NCBI GenBank assembly: GCA_021372515.1
Contig: JAJFUG010000027.1
Coordinates: 1 to 33,529, forward strand
Origin: a bacterium
Lineage (GTDB): Bacteria; Gemmatimonadota; Glassbacteria; GWA2-58-10
Direction of reading: 5' to 3'
DNA: 33,529 bases
Of this stretch, positions 4,783 through 30,248 are shown one piece after another (position 1 is the first letter of the stretch; every line of letters begins with the position of its first letter). The notes beneath the pieces are model-generated. The model worked only from the letters and a program-made list of their open reading frames with translations. It was not told where the DNA came from and did no database searches. The position numbers were made by a program, and so were the translations under genes.

Positions 4783-5919
4783 ATGTTCGGTAACAGGGGC
4801 GCCTCACAGGTTTTAACACTTCTGGCCGCGACATTGATCTGCGCCGGCCAGGCGCTTGCCCAGACCAGTTTGAAAGTCGTATCAGCCACAGGTGCGGCAG
4901 GTTCGGATGTTACGGTCAAGGTCACTGTGACCTCTGACAAGAATATCTCGGGCGCCGAGTTCCAGATGAGTTTCGATAAGTCCAAGTTGACTTTCAAGCA
5001 GGCAGCCAAAGGCTCCGCTGCAGCCAGCATGTTCATGACCGACCCGACAGTGCCCACCGTAGGCGACCAGACCGTGAGCGCCGATAGCAGCAAGCTCTAC
5101 ATCCAGTTGATCGATTCGACCCAGACCCATCCGATCGCCTCCGGCACTGACCGCGAGGTCGTGCTGGTCACGTTCACGATCAAGAGCGGGGTTACGGGCA
5201 GCGTGCCGGTGACCCTGAGTGGTGTGTCGCTGTCGGACGCCGCTGGCGCATCGATCAGCGCCACCACGACCGACGGTGAGGTGACAGTCGGCTCGGGCGT
5301 GGACATACAGCTCAGCGTGACCGACGGGCGCGGGCCGGCCGGCTCCGACGTTACGGTCAAGGTGATGGCGGATGTCAACCGTGAGGCCGTGGGCCTGAAT
5401 TTCGGCCTGGTGTTCGACAAGAACAAGCTCACCCTCAAATCCGTCGCCCGCGGCGCCGCCGCCCCCGGCGTGGACAGCCTGGACATCTACACCGATATCG
5501 CCGCGGCCAACGCCGCCGGCAAGATCGAAGTTTGGCTGCTGGACTATTTCTTCGGCCAGACCGGCGCCAACCCGCTCAAGGTCGGAAAAAGCAAGGAAAT
5601 CTACAAGTTCACCTTCACGATAAACAGCGGTGCGGAGGACGGCGAGGTGCCGGTGACACTGTCCGGGATCGAGGCCGGGGCGATTGAGGGCGGCGAGTCC
5701 GTGCTGCTCACCTACTCCTCGTTGGGCGGCATTGTCACGATCGGCGGCGCGCCCGGGGATGTGGACGGCAACGGCAAGCTGGACGTGTTCGACCTGCTCG
5801 GCCTGCTCAAGGTCCTGAGCGGCGCCCAGGTCGGCAACGGTCTGAGCGATGTGGACGGCAACGGCAAGATCGATATCTTCGACCTGCTCGCCCTGCTGAA
5901 AAAGCTGTCCGGCAACTGA
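4783..5919 (+). CDS. Secreted protein with two cohesin-like domains and a C-terminal dockerin
   Basis: The protein has 378 residues. Residues 1-26 form a signal peptide (hydrophobic core, then GQALA before the likely cleavage). Two related beta-sandwich domains follow. Residues about 28-172 and 175-322 both begin with a GSDVTVKV strand, contain FDKxKLTxK and close with VPVTLSG, the pattern of cohesin/carbohydrate-binding-type domains. The C-terminus (325-378) is a dockerin with two calcium-binding loops, DVDGNGK at 326-332 and 356-362, each followed by a helix xxDLLxLLKxLSG. The two dockerin halves are also a direct DNA repeat (5758-5822 and 5848-5912). Cohesin binds dockerin in cellulosomes, so carrying both on one chain could allow self-assembly or calcium-dependent cell-surface oligomers. 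No catalytic glycosidase domain is seen and no other cellulosomal gene is nearby. Confidence 0.88.
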   Translation: MFGNRGASQVLTLLAATLICAGQALAQTSLKVVSATGAAGSDVTVKVTVTSDKNISGAEFQMSFDKSKLTFKQAAKGSAAASMFMTDPTVPTVGDQTVSADSSKLYIQLIDSTQTHPIASGTDREVVLVTFTIKSGVTGSVPVTLSGVSLSDAAGASISATTTDGEVTVGSGVDIQLSVTDGRGPAGSDVTVKVMADVNREAVGLNFGLVFDKNKLTLKSVARGAAAPGVDSLDIYTDIAAANAAGKIEVWLLDYFFGQTGANPLKVGKSKEIYKFTFTINSGAEDGEVPVTLSGIEAGAIEGGESVLLTYSSLGGIVTIGGAPGDVDGNGKLDVFDLLGLLKVLSGAQVGNGLSDVDGNGKIDIFDLLALLKKLSGN

Positions 5920-5976: not shown

Positions 5977-6156
5977 ATTTGGGGAGGGACGGAGGTAGGG
6001 GGGAGGTGGGCTGTGGAGGGTCGGTCGGGAAGAATTGTTACAATCATGTTTCGGTGGATGGGATCTGCCGTATCGTGAGCCCGGGAGCGACCGGTTTGAC
6101 CCAGAAATATCTTGTCAGATGTGCAGTTGGCGTTTATTTTTGCAACTCTCTAAAAG

Positions 6157-12326: not shown

Positions 12327-12403
<77 letters not shown>

Positions 12404-12414
12404 TAATTGACGAG

Positions 12415-12448
12415 AAAGCCCTTCGGACAGTATGTCGAAGGGCTTTTT
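12415..12448 (+). terminator. Terminator after tRNA-Asp
   Basis: An 11-bp stem AAAGCCCTTCG (12415-12425) / CGAAGGGCTTT (12436-12446) is followed by a run of five T. It differs in sequence from the terminator after the displaced tRNA end at 25379, as expected if this one came in with the island. Confidence 0.85.
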
Positions 12449-12680
12449 GTATGTAAATGAAAGACTTTCACTCCCCCCGTACCTCTTCGAAGGATGAAAC
12501 ATAAAGGGCTTGCTCTTTTCAGCAGATCCTTTATCATCCAAGTACATCGCGTTTTGAAAGTGATGATTGTGTGGATGGCCTCAAGCTGACAATTACACGC
12601 TTTCGGACTGGGATTCCAGACGCTCTGTCTGAGCTGGTGCTACATGTTTCAGGCGGACTTGTCGAGCAAGGTGGCCCGCT

Positions 12681-13874
12681 ATGAGGATGGAGTCAGGACA
12701 GCGTTTCGCCGGCACGCTGACCATGCAGCCACTGGACCTGCGACTGCGCCAGGATGTCAGACAGTCACTGCTCGATACGATTGCCGCGAGCGCGGTGTTT
12801 CCATGCCGGACAACTCCGCTGGACATCTTCAGATACGCGGTGTCTGAGGCAATAGGACTGCATGCGGAGCGGCTATCGCAACTCGTAGAAGACTGCGAAG
12901 ATATCGCCTCACAAAGTCCCGATGCACCGAGGCCGGAAGACTACTATTGGGCCATTCGGTTCGCGGTGTCACGCGCTGTTTCGGCGATCCAGGGTTCACT
13001 CGCTGAGATGCTGGCGCTGGGACCGGTGGCGCAGCTTGTCGCCGAACTCAGGACAGCGCGGGCAATTCCGAAAGCAACACGAATCTGGGTCGGGAATTCT
13101 ATCGTGGCCCCGTCATTCAACGGCAAAACCGTGGCGAGCGCGGCGGATGTACATTTTCTGGTCACCTCGCCCACGCGGAAGCGAGCCGTGCTTGTGGGAG
13201 TGGCCGAGGTTAAATCGTACCGCTGTTCACAGAACAAAGCGACCTGCCAGCTCGACAAGCATCTCGCCAGAGCCGCGCGAGGCTTGGTGACACATCTGCC
13301 AGGGCGCCGGAACGTCCATTACGCGGTGCGGCCGGCGAAGACACCGCTCAAGATATTCATCATCCCCGCACAGTGGCGCTTGTCTCGACATTTCAGGTTT
13401 GAGTCGAACGGAAGCCGCCGCAGTCTTGTCGTGCAGCCTCCTGAACCCGCGGCCGCAGTGAAGGCTCTCGCACATCTACCCGGCGAGTGGAAAATCACGC
13501 TGAGATGGTCCAACGAAGCGCTCGCAGCGGCCGCATTCGAAATCTTCCTCTGGTGCCTGGGACGAATTGGCGAAAAAGTCTACGCTCTGCGTCCCTCGCC
13601 ATGGGCCGGGATGACTCCTGCCGCAGCGGGTCAGAACGCCGCGAAGATGGCACTCTACTACGCGCTCCTGAACATCGAAGAACCCGAGACGCTTGGCCAG
13701 GCGATCAAACTCTACAATATCCTTGGGTTTGGCTTCGCGCTGGGCTCCAGTTTCCGCGGAAGAGATGGTCGGCCGGCCATGCTCTGGCCCCAGGACCTGG
13801 ATGAGATACTTGAGAACGGCAGAACGCGCGAGGGCGGATACCTCAAGGGAATGCCGCCTGACAGCCGAATTTGA
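12681..13874 (+). CDS. Putative PD-(D/E)XK nuclease-fold protein, otherwise uncharacterised
   Basis: I do not recognise the family of this 397-residue protein. The centre holds a PD-(D/E)XK-like core: Asp156 in AADVHFLVTS, then a strand and Glu176-x-Lys178 in VGVAEVKSYRC, the arrangement of many restriction and phage-defence endonucleases. The protein also has a helical N-terminal domain (about 1-130) and a C-terminal region after about residue 250 rich in Ala, Trp and Arg. There is no signal peptide or membrane segment. Translation probably starts at 12681, with AAGGTGG about 6 nt upstream; ATGs at 12687 and 12723 are alternatives. It is the first gene of the island, and its stop is 4 bp from the stop of the convergent ATPase gene. 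A defence or addiction nuclease role is inference. Confidence 0.6.
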   Translation: MRMESGQRFAGTLTMQPLDLRLRQDVRQSLLDTIAASAVFPCRTTPLDIFRYAVSEAIGLHAERLSQLVEDCEDIASQSPDAPRPEDYYWAIRFAVSRAVSAIQGSLAEMLALGPVAQLVAELRTARAIPKATRIWVGNSIVAPSFNGKTVASAADVHFLVTSPTRKRAVLVGVAEVKSYRCSQNKATCQLDKHLARAARGLVTHLPGRRNVHYAVRPAKTPLKIFIIPAQWRLSRHFRFESNGSRRSLVVQPPEPAAAVKALAHLPGEWKITLRWSNEALAAAAFEIFLWCLGRIGEKVYALRPSPWAGMTPAAAGQNAAKMALYYALLNIEEPETLGQAIKLYNILGFGFALGSSFRGRDGRPAMLWPQDLDEILENGRTREGGYLKGMPPDSRI

Positions 13875-13878
13875 GACA

Positions 13879-15114
13879 TTACAGGCAGGCGAACGGCAGG
13901 GCGGTGACACCGGAACCAAGCGGGAGAGTAATATCTCCGGGGTGAACCACGTAGCCCGGCGCTGCTTTTTCGCCGAGGTCCTGTTGAAAAGCCCTGATTG
14001 AGGCAGCCATTGCGGGACGGGGGGTGGCGGAGAGTTTTATTTCGATGGGTACAAGCCTGCCTGAACTTTCCACGATGATGTCCACTTCTGTTCCGGTAGA
14101 AGTCCTCCAGAAATATACCTGTGGCTCGATGCCGCGATGGATGAGAGTCTTGAAGACCTCCATAAGCACGGCGGTTTCCATGATCGATCCGCCCATCGGC
14201 CCGGAAGAGGCATGCTCAGGGTCTTTCAGGCCGCAGAGGTAGCAGAGTGTACCCAGGTCCGTAAAATACACCTTGGGTGTTTTTACCAGCCTTTTCCCGA
14301 CATTTACGTAATAAGGCCACAGAACAATAACCTGATAAGTGGCCTCCAGCACCGAGAGCCAGGCTTTGACCGTGTTGATCGAGAGGCCGAGATCACGCGC
14401 AAGATCGGTCAGGCTTAGAAGCTGGGCGTTGCGGGCCGCCAATGCCCGAAGAAAATGCTGAAATTGCGAAAGGTCGCCTACCTGGCGCAGGGAGCGCACA
14501 TCCCGTTCCAGGTAAGTCTGAACGTACGATGCATGCCAGAGGCTGATGTCCCGCTCGGGATGAGCTGACAGCTCAGGGTAGCCACCCCGCAGAAAACTTT
14601 CCCAGAGAATCTTTGGAGAGGTCTGGCTTGCCGACGCTGAATCCAGACCGGTCTCCCAGGGCAGGGACGCCAGGGGCCTGCTTTCAGCTTCGCTTCTCGA
14701 AAGCGGAAGAAGGCGGAGTATAGCGGCCCGTCCGGCAAGTGACTCGGTTACATGCTGCATCAGAAGGAGGTTCTGCGATCCGGTCAGGAAGAAACGCCCG
14801 GTGGATTCCCGGTCGGAATCAATCTTTTCCTTGATGTAGGGAAGAAGGTCCGGTGCGTACTGCACCTCGTCAAAGATCACCGGAGGCGGAAACATTTCAA
14901 GGAAACCGCGTGGATCTGCTGTCGCGGCAGCCCGGATATCCGGGGGTTCGAGCGAGACGTACCGGCAGCTCTCACCGAACAGTCGACGCAAGGTGGTGGT
15001 CTTTCCAGCCTGACGGGGACCGGTAAGCACAACCGCCGGAAACTCGGCGGCGGCCTTTGTCAGTATCGGTTCAATTGACCGGCTGATATAGCTTTGGGAT
15101 ATTGGCCTGTTCAT
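13879..15114 (-). CDS. ATP-binding protein with AAA_14 and DUF4143 domains
   Basis: The protein has 411 residues when started at MNRPISQSYISR. Walker A is GPRQAGKT (32-39) and Walker B is VIFDEVQ with Asp82-Glu83, followed by the FFLTGSQNLLL sensor strand typical of the family. The C-terminal half is DUF4143, with a nuclease-like VDIIVESSGRLVPIEIKLS motif. Such proteins are common on islands, and their biological role is not established. The reading frame stays open to 15216, but the extra 34 codons run through the 54-bp direct repeat, and the ATG at 15112-15114 matches the family N-terminus. A perfect palindrome lies 4 bp before this start. Confidence 0.88.
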   Translation of the reverse strand: MNRPISQSYISRSIEPILTKAAAEFPAVVLTGPRQAGKTTTLRRLFGESCRYVSLEPPDIRAAATADPRGFLEMFPPPVIFDEVQYAPDLLPYIKEKIDSDRESTGRFFLTGSQNLLLMQHVTESLAGRAAILRLLPLSRSEAESRPLASLPWETGLDSASASQTSPKILWESFLRGGYPELSAHPERDISLWHASYVQTYLERDVRSLRQVGDLSQFQHFLRALAARNAQLLSLTDLARDLGLSINTVKAWLSVLEATYQVIVLWPYYVNVGKRLVKTPKVYFTDLGTLCYLCGLKDPEHASSGPMGGSIMETAVLMEVFKTLIHRGIEPQVYFWRTSTGTEVDIIVESSGRLVPIEIKLSATPRPAMAASIRAFQQDLGEKAAPGYVVHPGDITLPLGSGVTALPFACL

Positions 15115-15154: not shown

Positions 15155-15208
15155 AAATCACACCGCTTCCAGCAGGTATTTCTTAAACTTGTTTGCCGTC
15201 CTCCACCA
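15155..15208. repeat. 54-bp direct repeat, left copy
   Basis: It matches 19328-19381 at 51 of 54 positions (differences at 15163-15164 and 15205), 4,173 bp apart. On the minus strand it encodes the last 16 codons and stop of a frame ending W-W-RTANKFKKYLLEAV. A degenerate partial third copy (15249-15277 against 15165-15193, 23 of 29 identical) lies exactly 84 bp, or 28 codons, to the right. Confidence 0.9.
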
Positions 15209-15325
15209 AATAACACTATAAAGCTGGCCTGATTTCAACAATGACGCGGCTTTGAACAGGTTGTTCCTAAACTTGTTCCATTCTTCATAATGTCGGCACT
15301 TGACAGTAGATGCCGACGATATGTA
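15158..15325 (-). pseudogene. Probable 3' remnant of an unknown minus-strand gene overlapping the abiE control region
   Basis: The minus strand has an open frame of 55 codons ending in TGA at 15158-15160. Its product contains two copies of a short motif 28 residues apart, NKFRNNLFKAA and NKFKKYLLEAV, both rich in aromatic and basic residues. No ATG or GTG start is present; the first possible start is a TTG well inside the frame. The upstream end is closed by a stop at 15326-15328. The last 17 codons (with stop) are the left 54-bp repeat. I read it as the tail of a repeat-containing gene whose 5' part is gone, but it may instead be a non-coding repeat array that happens to be open. It overlaps the abiEi operator and promoter in antisense. 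Confidence 0.4.
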
Positions 15326-15335
15326 TCATATACTT
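15292..15335 (+). promoter_or_regulatory. abiE operon promoter with inverted-repeat operator
   Basis: A consensus -35 TTGACA (15300-15305) and a near-consensus -10 TATCAT (15324-15329) are 18 bp apart. A perfect inverted repeat GTCGGCA (15292-15298) / TGCCGAC (15311-15317) straddles the -35 box. AbiEi antitoxins are known to repress their own operon by binding inverted repeats in the promoter, so this is the expected operator. Transcription would begin near 15336, at the A of the best ATG, implying a leaderless message. Confidence 0.65.
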
Positions 15336-15938
15336 ATGAAAATAACTCCTCTAAAACTGGTGACATGGCTTGCACGGAAAAATGGACTTCTTCGGCCTCG
15401 TGACTTAGCCGAAATAGGTCTGTCGCGCCAATACCTAAGTATTGCGTACAAAAGGGGACTTCTGGAAAAAGTTGGCCGGGGGATGTATTCTCTGCCAAAT
15501 GCAGTGCAGCATGAATATCGCAGCTTCGCTGAAGTTTGCAAATATGCGCCGTCAGCGGTGGTTTGCCTTCTATCGGCGCTTCAATATCATGACCTCACTA
15601 CGCAAACTCCCTTCCAGGTGTGGCTGGCGATTGGACACAAAGCGCGTAAACCCAATATCGGCACGGTGCAAATTCGTGTGGTGCGTTACTCTGCTTCCTC
15701 ACTCGCTCAAGGAATTGAAATCCATAATATAGACGGGGTGGACATCCGGGTTTTCAGTCCTGCCAAGACCGTGGCTGATTGTTTCAAATACCGAAGCAAA
15801 ATCGGCCTCGATGTGGCAATAGAAGCTCTTCGTGACTGCCTGCGCCAGAAGAAAGCGACAGTCGATGAGCTGGTGTCGTTCGGGCGGGTGTGCCGGGTGG
15901 AACGGGTAATGAGACCATACGTGGAGGCGATGCTTTGA
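15336..15938 (+). CDS. abiEi: Type IV toxin-antitoxin system AbiEi-family antitoxin
   Basis: The protein has 200 residues. The N-terminal winged helix (about 1-55: LARKNGLLRPRDLAEIGLSR, then a basic wing GLLEKVGRGMYSLP) serves DNA binding and autorepression. The C-terminal AbiEi domain (about 60-200) neutralises the toxin and includes ALQYHDLTTQTPFQVWLAI and the conserved VFSPAKTVADCFKYRSKIG at 139-157. The start is set at the ATG at 15336 because the -10 box ends 6 bp before it; an in-frame ATG at 15321 would lie upstream of the predicted transcription start. The gene ends in a TTGA overlap with abiEii. It heads the three-gene operon, so it presumably controls the helicase as well. Confidence 0.88.
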   Translation: MKITPLKLVTWLARKNGLLRPRDLAEIGLSRQYLSIAYKRGLLEKVGRGMYSLPNAVQHEYRSFAEVCKYAPSAVVCLLSALQYHDLTTQTPFQVWLAIGHKARKPNIGTVQIRVVRYSASSLAQGIEIHNIDGVDIRVFSPAKTVADCFKYRSKIGLDVAIEALRDCLRQKKATVDELVSFGRVCRVERVMRPYVEAML

Positions 15939-16849
15939 GTGAGTCGGTAGCACAGTCAGTACTCGACAGGCTGCTGAATCTTTCAAGAAAGAACCGTGAG
16001 GATTACAATCTCGTTCTGACACGTTATGGTATAGAGCGCCTGCTTTATCGCCTGTCACAGACCAAGCATGCCGACCGGTTTGTCTTGAAAGGCGCAATGC
16101 TTTTCATGCTCTGGATGAACCAGGATTATCGGCCTACCAGAGACATAGACCTGCTTGGTTTTGGTGAAATTGATCAACGGATGTTGTCTGATATTTTTCG
16201 AGAGATTTGCCAGGTCAGTACAGTTGATGATGGGGTTGTATTTCAAGCTGATTCGATAAAAGTGGAAGAAATACGAGAGGGAGAAATCTACCAGGGGCAA
16301 CGCGTAAAGATTCGCGGAAACATTGGTAATACCAGGCTTGCCATGCAGGTAGATGTGGGGTTTGGAGACGTGATAGTTCCGGAACCGACAGAGCAGATTT
16401 TTCCGATCCTTCTGGATTATCCCGCACCGCGAATCCGTATTTACTCAAGGGAATCAGTCATTGCCGAAAAACTGGACGCCATTATTGTACTGGGATTGAG
16501 AAACAGCCGGATGAAAGACTATTATGACCTGTGGACGCTTGTCTGCAATTTTGAATTCGGCTCCAAGACATTGATCGAAGCAATCAGAGCGACTCTTGTC
16601 AAGCGGGGGCGAAAACTGCCTGAAAGTCTCCCCGCAGGATTGGGGGAACAGTTCGCGGCAGATTCATCAAAAAGGACCCAATGGAAGGCATTTATAGAGC
16701 GTGCAATCCCTGGGCGGCCAGTATTGGAGCTGGCTGATGTATTTCATAGATTGCGGGAATTTTTGGAAATACCACTCTGTGCGTTAACTGGTGACAGTTT
16801 TGCTGATTGGCATTGGCCTCCGGCAGGTCCATGGAAGAAAACGGACTGA
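15935..16849 (+). CDS. abiEii: Nucleotidyltransferase toxin, AbiEii/AbiGii family
   Basis: The protein has 304 residues when started at the TTG at 15935, which overlaps the abiEi stop by 4 bp and has GGAGG at 15923-15927. A GTG at 15890 is in frame but lies deep inside abiEi and has no ribosome binding site. The nucleotidyltransferase core shows FVLKGAMLFMLW, then PTRDIDLLG with Asp70 and Asp72 as metal ligands, and later the family motif SVIAEKLDAIIVLGLRNSRMKDYYDLW. AbiEii toxins add nucleotides to target RNAs or other acceptors and block growth, giving abortive phage infection when the antitoxin is lost. The catalytic residues look intact. The helicase gene begins 4 bp after its stop. Confidence 0.88.
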   Translation: MSESVAQSVLDRLLNLSRKNREDYNLVLTRYGIERLLYRLSQTKHADRFVLKGAMLFMLWMNQDYRPTRDIDLLGFGEIDQRMLSDIFREICQVSTVDDGVVFQADSIKVEEIREGEIYQGQRVKIRGNIGNTRLAMQVDVGFGDVIVPEPTEQIFPILLDYPAPRIRIYSRESVIAEKLDAIIVLGLRNSRMKDYYDLWTLVCNFEFGSKTLIEAIRATLVKRGRKLPESLPAGLGEQFAADSSKRTQWKAFIERAIPGRPVLELADVFHRLREFLEIPLCALTGDSFADWHWPPAGPWKKTD

Positions 16850-16853
16850 TAGC

Positions 16854-19298
16854 ATGAGACTGGACAATGGTAGGATTCGAGAGCTTCGAACTGAACTCGC
16901 CAAAGTTGAGGCCAGGAGAGAATGGATTTTAGACGAGATCGCCAAGATTGAATCAACGGGACATATAAGCCCGCCCACTGTTGTTCAAACTGCTCCAATA
17001 CAACCTTCTTGTAATGTCAACAACCATTCGCCAGCACACGAAAAAATCTCCCTTTTCCGGTCCCTGTTTCGCGGCAGGCAGGATGTCTTCCCACGCCGCT
17101 TTGAAAGCATGAAAACCGGCAAGAGTGGGTATCAACCAGTATGCGGAAACGAGTGGCAACCTGGGATTTGCCTCAAACCTCGGATCAAATGCTCCGATTG
17201 CGAACACCGCCAGTATCTTCCAGTGACCGATCAGGTTATTGAATGCCATTTGAGAGGATGCAAGCCGGATGAAAAGCCCCAAAAAGATTTCGTTATCGGA
17301 GGATATCCGATGCTCCCTGATGAGACGAGTTGGTTTTTAGCGGTTGATTTTGACAAAACCTCTTGGCAGGAAGATGTTTTAGCTTTTCGCCACACCTGTG
17401 CGGAGCTTGATATACCGGTTGCAATTGAGCGTTCTCGTTCCGGCAATGGCGCGCATGCATGGTTCTTTTTCGAGGAACCGGTTCCATGTGTTCATGCTCG
17501 CCAAATGGGAGCATTTCTTCTGACAGAGACTATGGAGAGAAGCCCGGATATCGGGCTTGATTCTTACGACAGATTTTTTCCCAACCAGGATACGCTTCCT
17601 AAGGGAGGTTTGGGCAACTTAATTGCTCTTCCTTTACAAAAAAAATCTCGCGATGCCGGTAACACCGTGTTCCTCGACGAAAACAACAATCCTTATGAAG
17701 ACCAATGGGCGTTCCTGTCATCCATCGGGAGGATGAGTTTCAATCAAGTCGAAAAGCTGTCTCAAATCGCAACCGAAAAAGAACGCGTAACCGGATTGCG
17801 TATGCCGGTGACTGATGAAGAAGATGATGATAAGCCTTGGGTAAACCTGCCTTCTCGCTCAAAAGAGATGAAAGTCACCGGTCCATTGCCCCAAAAGATT
17901 GAAATAGTAAAGGCTAACCAGATTTATCTTGAAAAGGCAATGCTTTCTCCATCCTTGCGAAATGCATTGATCCGCACCGCCGCATTCCAGAATCCTGAAT
18001 TTTACCAGAAACAAAAATCGCGGATGCCTGTATGGAACATTCCTCGTATCATATCCTGCGCAGAAAACTTTCCTCATCATATCGCTTTACCACGAGGATG
18101 CCTTCCCGACCTGGTCGAATTGTTCAAAGACCTGGCAATCGAGCTGGATATCCGTGATGAACGGGTATCTGGTGAGCCGCTTGAAGTGGAATTCACCGGG
18201 CATCTTCTCCCTGAACAGCAGAAAGCAGCTCAAGCCCTACTTGCGCAGGATACTGGTGTTCTCGCTGCAGCCACCGCTTTTGGGAAAACTGTCGTAGCAA
18301 TATATCTTATTGCCAAGCGTGCGGTCAATACCTTGATTCTGGTACATCGTCGACAGCTTCTCCAGCAGTGGCAAACGAGGTTGACAGAATATCTCGACTT
18401 AGACAAAAAAGATATCGGTATCATTGGCGGTGGTAAGAGAAAACAGACCGGAAAGGTTGATATAGCAATCATTCAAAGCCTGAATCGCAAGGGGGAAGTG
18501 GATAATCTCGTTGCGGAATACGGACATCTTGTGATTGACGAATGCCATCACATTTCAGCTCCGAGTTTTGAGGCAATCTCCCGCGAATTCAAGGGGAGGT
18601 ATGTCACTGGACTTTCGGCCACAGTCACCCGTAAAGACGGCCACCATCCGATAATTTTTATGAACTGCGGATCGGTGCGCTTCAAGGTCAGCTCAAAGGA
18701 TCTAGCGAAAGAACGACCATTCAGATATTCTCTGATTGTACGAAATACATACTCGCGGCTACCGGTTGAATGTGCAAATGAAACGGCACTTACCATAGCC
18801 GAGATTTACTCTTTTCTGATGCACGATGAGCAGCGTAATAAAATGATTATCAACGATGTGCTAACAAACCTTGAAGAGGGCCGATTCCCGGTTCTGTTGA
18901 CCGAGCGGCGGGAGCATGTGGAGTACTTCCGAAAGGAACTTAACGATAAAGTTAAGCACCTGATAACCTTCAAAGGCGGAATGGGAAGGAAACAGCTCAA
19001 GGCTGCATTGGAAAAACTGAATACTCTTCCTGACAATGTTCCGCGTTTAATTCTGGCAACCGGCCGATTCTTGGGTGAGGGATTCGATGACGCCAGGTTG
19101 GACACTCTTTTCCTTGCTCTGCCAGTATCTTGGAAAGGAATACTGGTTCAGTATTCAGGTCGGTTGCACCGATTCCATGAAAGCAAGAAGAAAGCAATCA
19201 TTTACGACTATGCTGATCTGGAAATTCCAATGCTTGCCAGAATGTTCGAGAAACGAGTGAAGGGCTATAAGAGCATAGGATATGAAATTGATTTTTGA
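16854..19298 (+). CDS. TOTE conflict-system primase (AEP)-SF2 helicase fusion protein
   Basis: The protein has 814 residues, started at the ATG 4 bp after abiEii. A short coiled coil (about 6-33) is followed by an archaeo-eukaryotic primase domain of the TOTE conflict-system type (about 65-290). It contains a Cys cluster CLKPRIKCSDC at 106-116, catalytic AVDFD with Asp165 and Asp167, the SGNGAHAW motif with His201, and SYDRFFPNQDTLPKGGLGNL at 237-256. The C-terminal half (about 440-814) is a superfamily-2 helicase: Walker A ATAFGKT (473-479), DECH box (562-565), the SAT motif GLSATVTRKDG and the late motif QYSGRLHRFHESKKKAIIYDY. All catalytic residues appear present. It is cytoplasmic and probably acts on invading nucleic acid. 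I found no separate nuclease partner in the operon. The upstream AbiE pair is the unusual neighbour. Confidence 0.85.
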   Translation: MRLDNGRIRELRTELAKVEARREWILDEIAKIESTGHISPPTVVQTAPIQPSCNVNNHSPAHEKISLFRSLFRGRQDVFPRRFESMKTGKSGYQPVCGNEWQPGICLKPRIKCSDCEHRQYLPVTDQVIECHLRGCKPDEKPQKDFVIGGYPMLPDETSWFLAVDFDKTSWQEDVLAFRHTCAELDIPVAIERSRSGNGAHAWFFFEEPVPCVHARQMGAFLLTETMERSPDIGLDSYDRFFPNQDTLPKGGLGNLIALPLQKKSRDAGNTVFLDENNNPYEDQWAFLSSIGRMSFNQVEKLSQIATEKERVTGLRMPVTDEEDDDKPWVNLPSRSKEMKVTGPLPQKIEIVKANQIYLEKAMLSPSLRNALIRTAAFQNPEFYQKQKSRMPVWNIPRIISCAENFPHHIALPRGCLPDLVELFKDLAIELDIRDERVSGEPLEVEFTGHLLPEQQKAAQALLAQDTGVLAAATAFGKTVVAIYLIAKRAVNTLILVHRRQLLQQWQTRLTEYLDLDKKDIGIIGGGKRKQTGKVDIAIIQSLNRKGEVDNLVAEYGHLVIDECHHISAPSFEAISREFKGRYVTGLSATVTRKDGHHPIIFMNCGSVRFKVSSKDLAKERPFRYSLIVRNTYSRLPVECANETALTIAEIYSFLMHDEQRNKMIINDVLTNLEEGRFPVLLTERREHVEYFRKELNDKVKHLITFKGGMGRKQLKAALEKLNTLPDNVPRLILATGRFLGEGFDDARLDTLFLALPVSWKGILVQYSGRLHRFHESKKKAIIYDYADLEIPMLARMFEKRVKGYKSIGYEIDF

Positions 19299-19327
19299 TC
19301 TGATAGTATTTGAACCACCAGTTTTGG

Positions 19328-19381
19328 AAATCACAATGCTTCCAGCAGGTATTTCTTAAACTTGTTTGCCGTCCTCCGCCA
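19328..19381. repeat. 54-bp direct repeat, right copy
   Basis: It is the partner of 15155-15208 (51/54). On the minus strand it encodes only WRRTANKFKKYLLEAL and a stop (19331-19381), directly preceded in frame by TAA, so here no longer coding frame survives. It lies 29 bp after the helicase stop and 6 bp before a strong terminator. Confidence 0.9.
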
Positions 19382-19387
19382 TTAGTT

Positions 19388-19422
19388 AAAAGCACCCAAT
19401 TCCATCGAATTGGGTGCTTTTT
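19388..19422. terminator. Strong terminator at the right end of the cassette
   Basis: A perfect 15-bp stem (19388-19402 with 19407-19421) with loop CATC ends in a T-run on the plus strand, and the minus strand also ends in TTTT. It can stop both the helicase transcript and the convergent phosphorelay operon. Confidence 0.92.
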
Positions 19423-24459: not shown

Positions 24460-25324
24460 CTTTTCCTCCCAATACTGAATACCTTATCTTTTTTTAATGT
24501 CCCATTCGGGAGCGGGAGAAAATTCTGCACCTTCAGGCGACGACTTTGGTATGCTTACGGTGAACGATCGGGAAAGCATTATCTACTCCATCCCGAGGAT
24601 TCATGGATTCGAGATGGTTTCACGCGGCAGTAAAGAGGTCTTAATCGCCCTTTGGGACTGTTGATTTTGGAGATTCATTCTGGGCGTTTCCATGCAGTGG
24701 CTTGATCTCAGCGGTTGCCAGGGCAGGCTGACCAAGCCTATCGCTTTTATTGTCAACCGGTTTTGTGGTTATTGATTTGTCAGACATTTTATATTTGCGC
24801 GACCTTTGATTCAATGGTACATAGAATCATGTCTGTTTTTTTGCTTGGTTTTAATGTATCGGGCTCCGCAGCTCAGAAACATGATCTGTTGGAGGTTATT
24901 TCCTTAATCCACTGCAGATTGATGCTATTCAGCCGGGGAAACGTGAGAAACCTTCTACGCGATTAAATCAGAGGTCCCTTCCAATTAATAAGAAAAGAGA
25001 CAAATGTCAATATAGACCTTAGTCTTACACACCCGATATCTTGTCTTGTTTTCGCCGCAGGCTGTCGGAATATTGAAAAATCAGCTTGAGAGCTAATACT
25101 TTCAACAGAATTCAATGGATTGAACCACATAGACTGGATTAAGAAATCAGGAATATGTGCATTGTCGCAGGTCATTCTGTGTCAGTTTATGCCGGAATCG
25201 GGGTTAAACTATTAAATTCGTGCCAATCTGCAGCCTCACCCTGAAAGCATGACATACAGCCTCCATGCGCCTCTGGCTTTAGATAAAAGGAGTAAGAAAG
25301 AGGAGGGAAACTGCCTGAAGGGGT
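24460..25324. other. Non-coding right end of the island
   Basis: About 865 bp of AT-richer DNA lie between the phosphorelay operon and the displaced tRNA end. The promoter of the minus-strand operon must lie at its left end, but no convincing boxes were found. A 37-codon frame (24551-24664) has no ribosome binding site and no recognisable product. No integrase remnant could be recognised in any frame. Confidence 0.6.
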
Positions 25325-25369
25325 CTGTCAAGCCGGAGGCCGCGGGTTCAAGTCTCGTCGGCCCCGCCA
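25325..25369 (+). pseudogene. Displaced 3' end of tRNA-Asp (right island junction)
   Basis: The 45 nt match 12359-12403 with two changes (25340 C for T, 25345 G for A). The sequence keeps the 3' anticodon arm, T-arm with TTCAAGT, the 3' acceptor strand and CCA, but no D-arm or 5' acceptor strand lies upstream, so it cannot fold as a tRNA. The following terminator at 25379 fits the original end of the tRNA gene before integration. Confidence 0.88.
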
Positions 25370-25378
25370 CCAATAGAG

Positions 25379-25411
25379 AAGGGCCTGGGAGATCCTCCCA
25401 GACCCTTTTTT
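25379..25411 (+). terminator. Terminator following the displaced tRNA-Asp end
   Basis: The stem at 25379-25391 with 25395-25407 has one C/A mismatch (core CTGGGAG/CTCCCAG), a 3-nt loop and a T-run at 25406-25411. It most likely ended the ancestral tRNA-Asp transcript. Confidence 0.88.
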
Positions 25412-26747: not shown

Positions 26748-29700
26748 ATGATGAGAATGAGAAGAATTTCTCTCCTTTTATCAACCCTCGCCATCCTTGT
26801 TGGTTCCCACAGGAACCTCTACGCGGTGAAATATCCTTTCAGAACCTATACTGCCAAAGACGGACTGGCGTCGAATCAGGTCGGCTCGATCCTGCAAGAC
26901 CGTAAAGGCTGCCTCTGGTTATCGACTCAGGGCGGAATTTCCAGGTTCAATGGTTTGAATTTTACCAATTACAGCGTAACGGATGGTTTAGCCGGCAACA
27001 GCGCTCTAAAAATCTTCGAGGATTCCCGGGGCGGCCTCTGGGCCAGTTTCTGGGGAGGGGGAGTGAGCAGGTATGACGGGGAGAAGTGGACCACTCTGAG
27101 CGATGATTATCTGCGGGACAACACTGTCTGGACTTTTTTCGAGGATTCCCGCGGCCGACTGTGGGTGACTACCTTCGGGGCCGGTGTGGCTTGTCTCGAC
27201 AAGGCCGGGTGGCAATATCACACCGTCGCCGATGGACTGCCCGATAACCGGGTCAGGACTGTATTTGAGGACTCCAAAGGCAACCTGTGGTTCGGGTTCC
27301 AGCAGTATGGAGTCTGCCGTTTCGATGGCAAGAACTGGAAACACTTCTATCCTCTGGGACCGGGAGCGCTTTGCCAGATCAACTCCATTGTCGAGGATAA
27401 AGAGGGCGACATCTGGCTCGCCGGCTACAGCAAAATAAAAAGAGAGAGTGTAGCCATAGAAATCAGAGGGACTGTTGAACAGGGGAACTACAGGATTTTC
27501 GACCACAAGGATGGTATCCCGCTGGGTTCTGATCCCTCACTTTTACAGGACAGCCAGGGCAATATCTGGTACAGTGCACAGGGCGGCGGTGTGGGGGTTT
27601 ATGACGGCACAGGCTGGAAGACATACACCACGCAAAATGGGCTGCCCTCCGATAATATCACCTCGATCTTCGAGGATAAGGAAAAGAACCTGTGGTTCGG
27701 CACCTGGGGAGACGGGTTGGTGCGGCTCAGCGACAGGGCTTTCGTGACCTATACCGAGGCGGATGGACTGCCGGGGAACTCGGTTGCCCCCGCGCTTGAG
27801 GATAGGCAGGGAAACCTCTGGTTTAACGACCGGTATGTCGAGGGAGTCGCCAGGTATGACGGCAATAAATGGACTACGTATACCTCGCGTGACGGCTTGT
27901 GCAGCGACCATATAGTACATCTTTATATGGACAGCAAGGGCGTTATCTGGTTTTCGTCCGGCTACGAAATAAGTACATTAGACGGTTCGAGGTGGAAAAA
28001 TTATATTCTCGAAAATCAATGGATCAACAGGTCTTTTTTTGAGGACAGAAATGGCGTCATTTACATCGGGACGTTTCAATACAAGTTCAACGGACGGACA
28101 ATCGAGCCTTGTTTATTGAAAGGAGAAAATCCCGATTCCCCTCCCTCGGTCCTTTCGACAGCTCAAGACACGGCCGGCAATTTGCTGTTCGGCACCACGG
28201 AGTGCCTGCTGGTCTTTAACGGCACCGACCTCAGAAAGCTGGAACGAGGCAGAGTAATCAATGCAATTACAGGCGACCCCGAGCGATGTCTCTGGTTTGC
28301 CACGGACAGCGGTTTGGTAAAATCCGATATCCAGGACTATTACGGATACGCCGGAGAAAACGAGCGGCTCGCCGGAATACGCTATACCATTGAAAGCGGT
28401 CTGGCCCATAACGATGTCCTGGCCCTCTGCCGGGACGCCTCCGGCGCGGTATGGGCGGGTACAAACGGTGGCGGCGTTAGCCGGCTCAAGGATGACGCAA
28501 TTACCAATTTCACCGTAGAGAACGGCCTTTCCAGCAATGTCTGCAACTATATCCTCGAGTCCGGCAGCCGCTTGTATTTTGTGATGTCCAACGGACTCAA
28601 TTGCTACGACGGCGAGACGTTCAAAGTCTATACTGAGGAGGATGGCTTCACCGCCAACACACAATCCCAGCCTCTCCTGGATCGAAAAGGAAACCTCTGG
28701 TTCAGATCGCCCAATGGTGTAATAAAATATGATCCTTCCTCCGACCGGCCGACTCTCATTCAACCGCCCGTTTATATCACCGGGCTTAAATTGTTCGATA
28801 AGAGCATCCCGGTTAGGGACGGAATCGTCCTCGATTACGACATGAACGGCCTGAATATAGAATTTGTCGGTATCTGCTTTGCCTCGCCGGGTGTCCTGTA
28901 CAACTATCGACTGGAGGGCCTGGAGGCGGATTGGATCCCAACCCGCCAGAATTCCGTCTCCTACACCAACCTGCCTGAAGGCCGATATACATTCAAAGTC
29001 AAGGCGAGGAACCAAGACGGGGTCTGGAGCCGGGAGACGGCAACGCTGTCTTTCAGAATACTGCCACCCTTCTGGGCCACGCTCTGGTTCAGGGTCTTGA
29101 GCCTCGTTGCCATCGTTGCCGCTTTCTACGGGATTCACGAATTCAGGACACGCTTCATCAAGAAAAGAAACCTCGAACTCCTGCACGAGGTGAGTGAACG
29201 CAAGAAAGTGGAATCCGCCTTGCGGAAAGAACATGCCGAGGTGGAGAGCCTGAAGAACCGTCTCCAGGCCGAGAACATTTACCTGCAGGAAGAGATCCGG
29301 ATCGAGCACGATTTCAAGGAGATCATCAGCAACAGCGACGCGCTGAACAAAGTGCTGGAGCGGGTGGAGCAGGTAGCCGCCACCGACGCCACGGTGCTTA
29401 TTCTCGGCGAGACCGGGACCGGCAAGCAGCTCATTGCCCGGGCCGTGCACAATGTAAGCCCACGGGCCGAGAGGGCGCTGGTTACCGTGAACTGCGCCGC
29501 CCTGCCGGCCACTCTTATCGAGAGCGAGCTTTTCGGACATGAAAAGGGAGCGTTCACCGGAGCGCTTTCCAGAAAGATCGGGCGTTTCGAACTGGCGGAC
29601 GGCGGCTCGATTTTCCTGGACGAGATCGGGGAAATGCCTCTCGACCTGCAGGCCAAGCTCCTGCGGGTCCTGCAGGACGGGGAATTCGAGCGGCTGGGCA

Positions 29701-30248
29701 GCACCGCCACGATCAGGGTCAATGTTCGGATCATTGCCGCCACCAACCGTGACCTCGAAAAAGAGGTGCGGCAGGACCGCTTCCGGCAGGACCTCTTCTA
29801 CCGGCTCAATGTCTATCCGATTACCTGCCCGCCCCTGCGTGAGCACAAGGAGGACATCCCGCTGCTGGTCAACCATTTTGTCAATAAATACAGCGCCCAG
29901 GCCGGTAAGAAGATAAATTTCATCTCGCCGAACCTTATTGACAACCTGCAGTCTTACGACTGGCCGGGTAATGTCCGGGAACTGGAAAATGTCATCGAGC
30001 GGGCCGTGATTGTCAGCCGCAGGAACAAGCTCGAACTGGCCGAGTCTCTGCAGAAAGAGACCCAGCCCCGGGACCGGGATTCGAGAACCCCGACCCTGGA
30101 GGAACTGGAGCGGGAGCACATTGTAAAAGTGCTGAAAACCACCGGCTGGCGGATAAGAGGAAAATCCGGCGCGGCGGAAATTTTAGGGCTGAAACCGACA
30201 ACGCTTGAATCGAGAATGGACAAGCTGGGGATCCGGCGCAACACCTGA
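26748..30248 (+). CDS. Membrane one-piece regulator: Reg_prop propellers, Y_Y_Y, TM, sigma-54 AAA+ activator, Fis HTH
   Basis: The protein has 1166 residues. A signal/anchor sequence (1-26) is followed by about 14-15 propeller blades (about 30-665; motif FEDSKGNLWFGT), enough for two seven-bladed propellers. A Y_Y_Y domain (about 690-772, YNYRLEGLEADWIP) and a transmembrane helix (about 776-798) come next, then a coiled coil (about 800-855). The sigma-54 activator domain has Walker A GETGTGK (887-893), the sigma-54-contacting loop GAFTGA (934-939), Walker B FLDEIGEM and the R-finger region. The C-terminus (about 1115-1166) is a Fis-type helix-turn-helix. Propeller/Y_Y_Y sensors are best known from Bacteroidota hybrid two-component systems, where they feed a histidine kinase. 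Here that part is replaced by a direct AAA+ output, giving periplasmic sensing with direct control of sigma-54 promoters. Confidence 0.95.
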   Translation: MMRMRRISLLLSTLAILVGSHRNLYAVKYPFRTYTAKDGLASNQVGSILQDRKGCLWLSTQGGISRFNGLNFTNYSVTDGLAGNSALKIFEDSRGGLWASFWGGGVSRYDGEKWTTLSDDYLRDNTVWTFFEDSRGRLWVTTFGAGVACLDKAGWQYHTVADGLPDNRVRTVFEDSKGNLWFGFQQYGVCRFDGKNWKHFYPLGPGALCQINSIVEDKEGDIWLAGYSKIKRESVAIEIRGTVEQGNYRIFDHKDGIPLGSDPSLLQDSQGNIWYSAQGGGVGVYDGTGWKTYTTQNGLPSDNITSIFEDKEKNLWFGTWGDGLVRLSDRAFVTYTEADGLPGNSVAPALEDRQGNLWFNDRYVEGVARYDGNKWTTYTSRDGLCSDHIVHLYMDSKGVIWFSSGYEISTLDGSRWKNYILENQWINRSFFEDRNGVIYIGTFQYKFNGRTIEPCLLKGENPDSPPSVLSTAQDTAGNLLFGTTECLLVFNGTDLRKLERGRVINAITGDPERCLWFATDSGLVKSDIQDYYGYAGENERLAGIRYTIESGLAHNDVLALCRDASGAVWAGTNGGGVSRLKDDAITNFTVENGLSSNVCNYILESGSRLYFVMSNGLNCYDGETFKVYTEEDGFTANTQSQPLLDRKGNLWFRSPNGVIKYDPSSDRPTLIQPPVYITGLKLFDKSIPVRDGIVLDYDMNGLNIEFVGICFASPGVLYNYRLEGLEADWIPTRQNSVSYTNLPEGRYTFKVKARNQDGVWSRETATLSFRILPPFWATLWFRVLSLVAIVAAFYGIHEFRTRFIKKRNLELLHEVSERKKVESALRKEHAEVESLKNRLQAENIYLQEEIRIEHDFKEIISNSDALNKVLERVEQVAATDATVLILGETGTGKQLIARAVHNVSPRAERALVTVNCAALPATLIESELFGHEKGAFTGALSRKIGRFELADGGSIFLDEIGEMPLDLQAKLLRVLQDGEFERLGSTATIRVNVRIIAATNRDLEKEVRQDRFRQDLFYRLNVYPITCPPLREHKEDIPLLVNHFVNKYSAQAGKKINFISPNLIDNLQSYDWPGNVRELENVIERAVIVSRRNKLELAESLQKETQPRDRDSRTPTLEELEREHIVKVLKTTGWRIRGKSGAAEILGLKPTTLESRMDKLGIRRNT

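Follow-up and report, generated by a model that had tools for sequence, protein, structure and literature searches.

Why does a toxin-antitoxin (TA) pair of the AbiE type lie directly ahead of a primase-helicase gene, so closely packed that the three genes could be read as one operon? The question is raised by a 33,529-nt stretch of a Gemmatimonadota genome (Glassbacteria, GWA2-58-10; assembly GCA_021372515.1, contig JAJFUG010000027.1), hereafter the window, in which abiEi, abiEii and a gene for a primase-polymerase (Prim-Pol) fused to a helicase form a compact cassette. With a probability of about 0.5, our analyses support a mobile, probably co-transcribed three-gene conflict module, in which an exchangeable TA pair upstream of a Prim-Pol/XPB-like helicase of the CRISPR-associated Prim-Pol (CAPP) type serves as its guard or growth-arrest arm. 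The parts are all known; what appears to be new is their recurrent, multiply originated operonic coupling. A first-pass annotation, made from the DNA letters alone, had considered the combination undescribed, and indeed no description of AbiEii paired with TOTE, SWIM or primase-polymerase proteins was found in the searchable literature, most subscription papers being outside its reach.

Recurrence and origins of the AbiE-helicase coupling

About 1,650 genomes from five groups were screened for the AEP-TOTE primase family PF22548, and plasmids were screened for the helicase. The survey set comprised 116 helicases sharing less than 80% identity, 113 of them with at least 500 nt of upstream sequence. 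AbiEii was found directly upstream and on the same strand in ten lineages, the window counted. The loci concerned are the Glassbacteria pair (the window and its sister locus L024), Arcobacteraceae plasmids (L148, L179, L293 and L295), and L275, L281, L286, L287, L206, L209, L245 and L266. The adjacency, which the first-pass annotation had proposed to look for across genomes, is thus not confined to this genome: a second genus of the family has it, as do Campylobacterota plasmids and further lineages. Gaps between AbiEii and the helicase are mostly of -4 to +17 bp, reaching 47 bp in L287, a locus added by hand whose helicase has an in-frame stop; the weakest case is L266, in which the toxin is barely above the Pfam cut-off and the first gene has no AbiEi match. 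Among directly upstream open reading frames (ORFs), AbiEii was the commonest Pfam family with 10 of 98, whereas the remaining genes from these loci gave 2 of 139 (Fisher p=0.0044); omitting L287 leaves 9 of 97 (p=0.0087).

Arcobacter cloacae has a 92%-identical helicase with the AbiE block relocated downstream of it, adjacency being kept. A 150-aa ORF of this species (L294, 2046-2498), ParB/Srx-like by eye and without a Pfam hit, lies 2 bp upstream of the helicase, where relatives carry AbiE. A fused query of the window AbiEii and helicase proteins retrieved no plasmid record spanning both, although the sensitivity of this search was low, divergent Arcobacteraceae AbiEii having later been found by annotation. 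Among the matches listed, phages matched the helicase half alone, and viral contigs yielded one weak helicase match and three contigs with AbiEii.

When the AbiE label is mapped on a tree of 108 helicases, nine changes are required, of which supported branches force at least seven, and its clustering does not exceed that of shuffled labels. The AbiEii proteins linked to the archaeo-eukaryotic primase (AEP) are polyphyletic, scattered among stand-alone AbiEii, with 7-9 changes in bootstraps. Long branches underlie some placements (L179, L266), and the labels of loci beyond the Pfam-confirmed ones were assigned by reading sequences. Judged from these trees, the operon-level coupling of AbiE and helicase, as claimed at first pass, has arisen independently several times across bacteria.

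The position ahead of the helicase is not reserved for AbiE. In other genomes, its Pfam-matched occupants include ParE (4), Fic/Doc (3), PIN (3) and MazF/PemK (2), as well as HipA and YhaV, with arrangements such as MazE-MazF (L037), a ParE toxin after a ParD-like ORF (L042) and HigB followed by a regulator (L147). Toxins of all kinds fill this slot in 24 of 98 cases against 6-8 of 139 in the control (p of about 6e-6 to 7e-5), approximate figures taken among the first 25 families listed, in which single-member control toxins may be hidden. Because ParE, MazF, PIN, Fic/Doc, HipA and YhaV hold the same position, the general feature is the slot and not AbiE itself. The proposal that the AbiE pair is a regulatory or suicide module for the primase-helicase therefore needs restricting, AbiE being no dedicated regulator of this helicase, and since unrelated toxins fill the slot, models needing a specific AbiE-helicase contact are disfavoured. 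In three further loci (L271 7779-8330, L290 7940-8542 and L189 759-1322) a similar-looking protein of 183-200 aa overlaps the helicase start, with no PADLOC match in the two tested.

Anatomy and protein families of the cassette

The features of the cassette and of the surrounding island are collected in Table 1. The abiEi stop and the abiEii start overlap by 4 bp on the same strand, and 4 bp separate the abiEii stop from the helicase ATG, so that both spacings given at first pass were confirmed from the ORF coordinates. A TTGACA-N18-TATCAT promoter (15300-15329) and a terminator-like hairpin enclose the three genes, which supports the single promoter/operator previously claimed for them; over the whole promoter scan, the number of sites was not above that of shuffled sequences. 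The longest abiEi ORF begins at TTG 15300, a start that was dropped since this codon is the -35 box and the L024 alignment points to ATG 15336, giving 200 aa in both. Judged on the window sequence only, the palindrome lacks significance, as 14 of 60 shuffles reach it. The operator of L024 is an 18-bp perfect palindrome with TATAAT and that of L281 matches at 17 of 18 positions, whereas the window holds a degenerate form only.

Table 1. Features of the cassette and of its island (window coordinates)
Feature	Position	Strand	Evidence or remark
abiEi, type IV antitoxin, 200 aa	15336..15938	+	winged helix-turn-helix (wHTH) plus C-terminal domain; family matches, L024 alignment
abiEii, nucleotidyltransferase toxin, 304 aa, TTG start	15935..16849	+	family match, motif G53-A54-x15-D70-I-D72
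Prim-Pol (AEP) plus XPB-like superfamily 2 (SF2) helicase, 814 aa	16854..19298	+	profile, motif and fold matches
Putative promoter/operator	15285..15329	+	inverted repeat core GTCGGCA-N12-TGCCGAC; TTGACA (15300) in spacer, TATCAT (15324) at right arm
54-bp direct repeat, left copy	15155..15208	.	repeat comparison
54-bp direct repeat, right copy (94% identical to left)	19328..19381	.	repeat comparison
Intrinsic terminator-like hairpin, 15-pair stem, 3' of operon	19388..19421	+	hairpin prediction
tRNA-Asp, attachment-site gene of island	12327..12403	+	
Duplicated tRNA-Asp 3' end (94%), right island end	25322..25369	+	

The 54-bp repeats said to bound the cassette are real and form a unique pair, with exactly two copies in the 4.87-Mb genome; a third, partial copy of 38 bp (76% identical) lies at 15240-15277. 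A search for the origin of the repeat turned up no further copy, either in this genome or among 30 relatives, and hence no empty site to show. The minus strand of 15155-15290, which contains the partial copy, reads like the C-terminal end of a gene since lost, with the ending NKFKKYLLEAV*. As for the reported AT-richness of the cassette, it stands relative to the left flank (GC fraction of 0.45-0.49 vs 0.56-0.67) but not relative to other island parts, which are equally AT-rich.

AbiEi matches PF13338 (3e-10), the PADLOC AbiEi profile over its full length (7e-79) and, just under the cut-off, PF09407 (3e-4), and AbiEii matches PF08843 (2.8e-47). The AbiEii nucleotidyltransferase motif, defined as hG[G/S]x15DhD (PMC3985639), is found with exact spacing, Ala replacing Gly/Ser. 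With adjacent, overlapping genes on one strand, a wHTH antitoxin with a C-terminal domain, a toxin bearing nucleotidyltransferase motifs and, in degenerate form, a promoter palindrome, the pair has the make-up of an AbiE type IV TA bicistron (PMC3985639), from which the window operon differs by a third co-directional gene, the Prim-Pol/helicase. In the described systems AbiEi autorepresses via inverted repeats, AbiEii is GTP-binding and bacteriostatic, and the pair can protect against phages and stabilise plasmids (PMC3985639). In a type IV system of this kind AbiEi neutralises the toxicity without direct binding.

The protein of the third gene joins an AEP-TOTE primase (PF22548, 4e-99) to a ResIII/DEAD helicase. 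Its N-terminal domain matches the PADLOC CRISPR-associated PrimPol (1e-90) and PDB entries 7nqd/7nqf (2e-9), which we take to be CAPP structures; its C-terminal half matches XPB-II at the sequence level, and UvsW and XPB in fold (predicted structure, pLDDT 84.7, pTM 0.72). The AEP motifs DxD and SxxxxH (D165, D167, S196, G197, G199, H201) and the SF2 motifs (K478, D562-E563-x-H565-H566, A589-T590) are intact, and because these catalytic residues are invariant in 26-35 relatives, both primase and helicase look active. The catalytic residues singled out at first pass, D70/D72 of AbiEii, D165/D167 of the primase and the Walker lysine K478, were correctly named.

The most fitting name for the protein is a non-CRISPR CAPP-type Prim-Pol fused to an XPB-like helicase. 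Helicase-bearing CAPPs outside CRISPR loci have been described, typically on mobile elements (PMC8211822), and the window protein shares with them and with the CAPP_A helicase type both the fusion of an AEP catalytic domain to a helicase and the mobile-element setting. In contrast to CAPP, a TA pair lies upstream, the helicase is XPB/UvsW-like, and no Cas family occurs among the island genes tested, no search aimed at CRISPR arrays having been made. The label "TOTE-type" holds only as a Pfam domain name: TOTE conflict systems (TPR, OB, TBP, Effector; PMC12458937) have the AEP-TOTE domain in common with the window protein, whereas no TPR, OB or TBP family was found among the window island genes tested, nor in the gene after the unit in L024.

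An island at tRNA-Asp and its sister locus

The nearest relative with the unit, L024 (= G001, Candidatus Glassbacteria MFIX01000090), belongs to the same family as the window genome and to another genus; its AbiEi, AbiEii and helicase are 83.5%, 87% and 87% identical to those of the window. The setting is alike in the two genomes: gltB-gltD and tRNA-Asp come upstream of the operon, and a duplicated tRNA-Asp 3' piece follows it (in L024, tRNA-Asp at 6052-6135 and the piece at 12594-12642), which places a complete tRNA at one end and a 3' fragment at the other, as in a tRNA-integrated island. Neither an integrase or recombinase family nor a recognised replication gene occurs among the island genes tested. 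The DNA common to the two is confined to 15257-19291, beginning shortly ahead of the operator and ending at the helicase stop, at 86.3% identity, vs 74.9% for the flanking gltBD; at fourfold-degenerate sites identity is 0.61 for AbiEi, 0.72 for AbiEii and 0.73 for the helicase, vs 0.56 for gltB and 0.48 for gltD. Because both measures exceed those of gltBD, these identities indicate that the common ancestor of the cassette is more recent than that of the flanking core genes, AbiEii and the helicase having diverged together. The greater conservation of the cassette than of gltBD between genera is read as horizontal movement of the cassette as a unit.

The L024 operon is followed by a 637-aa SWIM-domain protein. 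Similar neighbours are, in L281, a PDC-S62 relative near the unit and, in L286, a SWIM-SNF2 protein behind it; these SWIM partners match the PADLOC candidate defence family PDC-S62 or DpdE, and the window has no such partner. In L038 (4427-9976) a single 1849-aa ORF fuses a SWIM-SNF2 protein and the Prim-Pol/helicase, two recurring neighbours.

Differing terminator-like hairpins follow each tRNA-Asp or repeat boundary (12404-12470, 19388-19421 and 25370-25410), and the hairpin at 19388 looks like the terminator that follows tRNA-Asp in relative G005 (L045), which suggests layered insertions at a hotspot. Adjoining the cassette is an AAA_14-DUF4143 ATPase (13879-15114, minus strand; PADLOC candidate PDC-S01), a family also found directly upstream of the helicase in L248, and a 397-aa island ORF (12681-13874, plus strand) has no Pfam, PADLOC or NCBIfam match. 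Elsewhere in the window, a single protein combines cohesin and dockerin domains (4783-5919), and a hybrid regulator fuses a Reg_prop/Y_Y_Y sensor to a sigma-54 activator and a Fis-type HTH (26748-30248). A Latescibacterota contig (L025, JABHYP010000027.1) carries an 81%-identical helicase starting at the contig edge, a possible case of recent transfer or misbinning.

Proposed function and rival explanations

In a conflict module of this kind, AbiEi would hold the shared promoter down, and its repression of all three genes is plausible because the palindrome around the promoter is conserved in the sister locus. The antitoxin would fall upon phage takeover or upon island entry into an antitoxin-free cell, and toxin and Prim-Pol/helicase would then be produced together; the toxin would stop growth, the helicase would unwind, and the Prim-Pol would prime or copy, invading DNA or blocked replication or transcription structures. 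By penalising loss of the helicase gene, the TA linkage would also guard the helicase. Several observations weigh against this interpretation. A TA is not obligatory, for in about 80 of the 113 loci none was recognised directly upstream; the control loci are themselves defence-rich; the window operator is partly degenerate; and in G143 and G176 the AbiE pair belongs to another subfamily and is divergent, not co-transcribed with the helicase, having its own 12-bp palindrome in G143. A broader version, which we hold only tentatively, would recognise a class of composite immune modules, each combining a conserved Prim-Pol/helicase with swappable TAs, drawn from seven or more toxin families and seated in a single operonic slot, where the TA would be a generic abortive arm triggered through the helicase.

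The main rival is pure addiction, in which the TA only retains a passenger Prim-Pol/helicase and the two never share a process. The variety of unrelated toxins in the slot, the stabilisation of plasmids by AbiE (PMC3985639) and the location of many relatives on plasmids and islands would all fit, yet co-residence on the element would suffice for addiction, and the genes instead overlap or sit a few bp apart, apparently under one promoter; we regard this explanation as rather doubtful. It is unlikely that the Prim-Pol/helicase is a non-immune replication or repair helper of a mobile element, to which the TA promoter merely gives regulated expression. In favour of this reading, non-CRISPR CAPP homologues are typically on mobile elements (PMC8211822), the nearest helicase folds are UvsW and XPB, and relatives adjoin recombinase trios and TniQ/TniB, but the island lacks recognised integrase or replication genes among those tested and the SWIM partners are of candidate defence families. 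Least probable of these is a neighbourhood effect, by which two genes that each abound in defence islands and mobile elements come to be adjacent by chance. TA and Abi families do occur among the control genes from these loci, and plasmid relatives are often beside integrases, transposases or RelE/HipA; against this, AbiEii is about sevenfold enriched over the same-locus control, mostly with tiny gaps, and lies directly upstream in 10 cases where 0.02 would be expected (at a rough 0.75 AbiEii per genome).

Helicases of the non-CRISPR CAPP type occur widely on mobile elements, and we found no role stated for them. The repeated independent recruitment of unrelated toxins to one operonic position would give these helicases a testable function, the occurrence of the same helicase with different toxins providing a natural experiment, and the slot pattern would demonstrate that larger conflict systems can take up TA pairs as interchangeable parts. 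Taken as a whole, the comparisons point to a modular, probably anti-invader gene unit.

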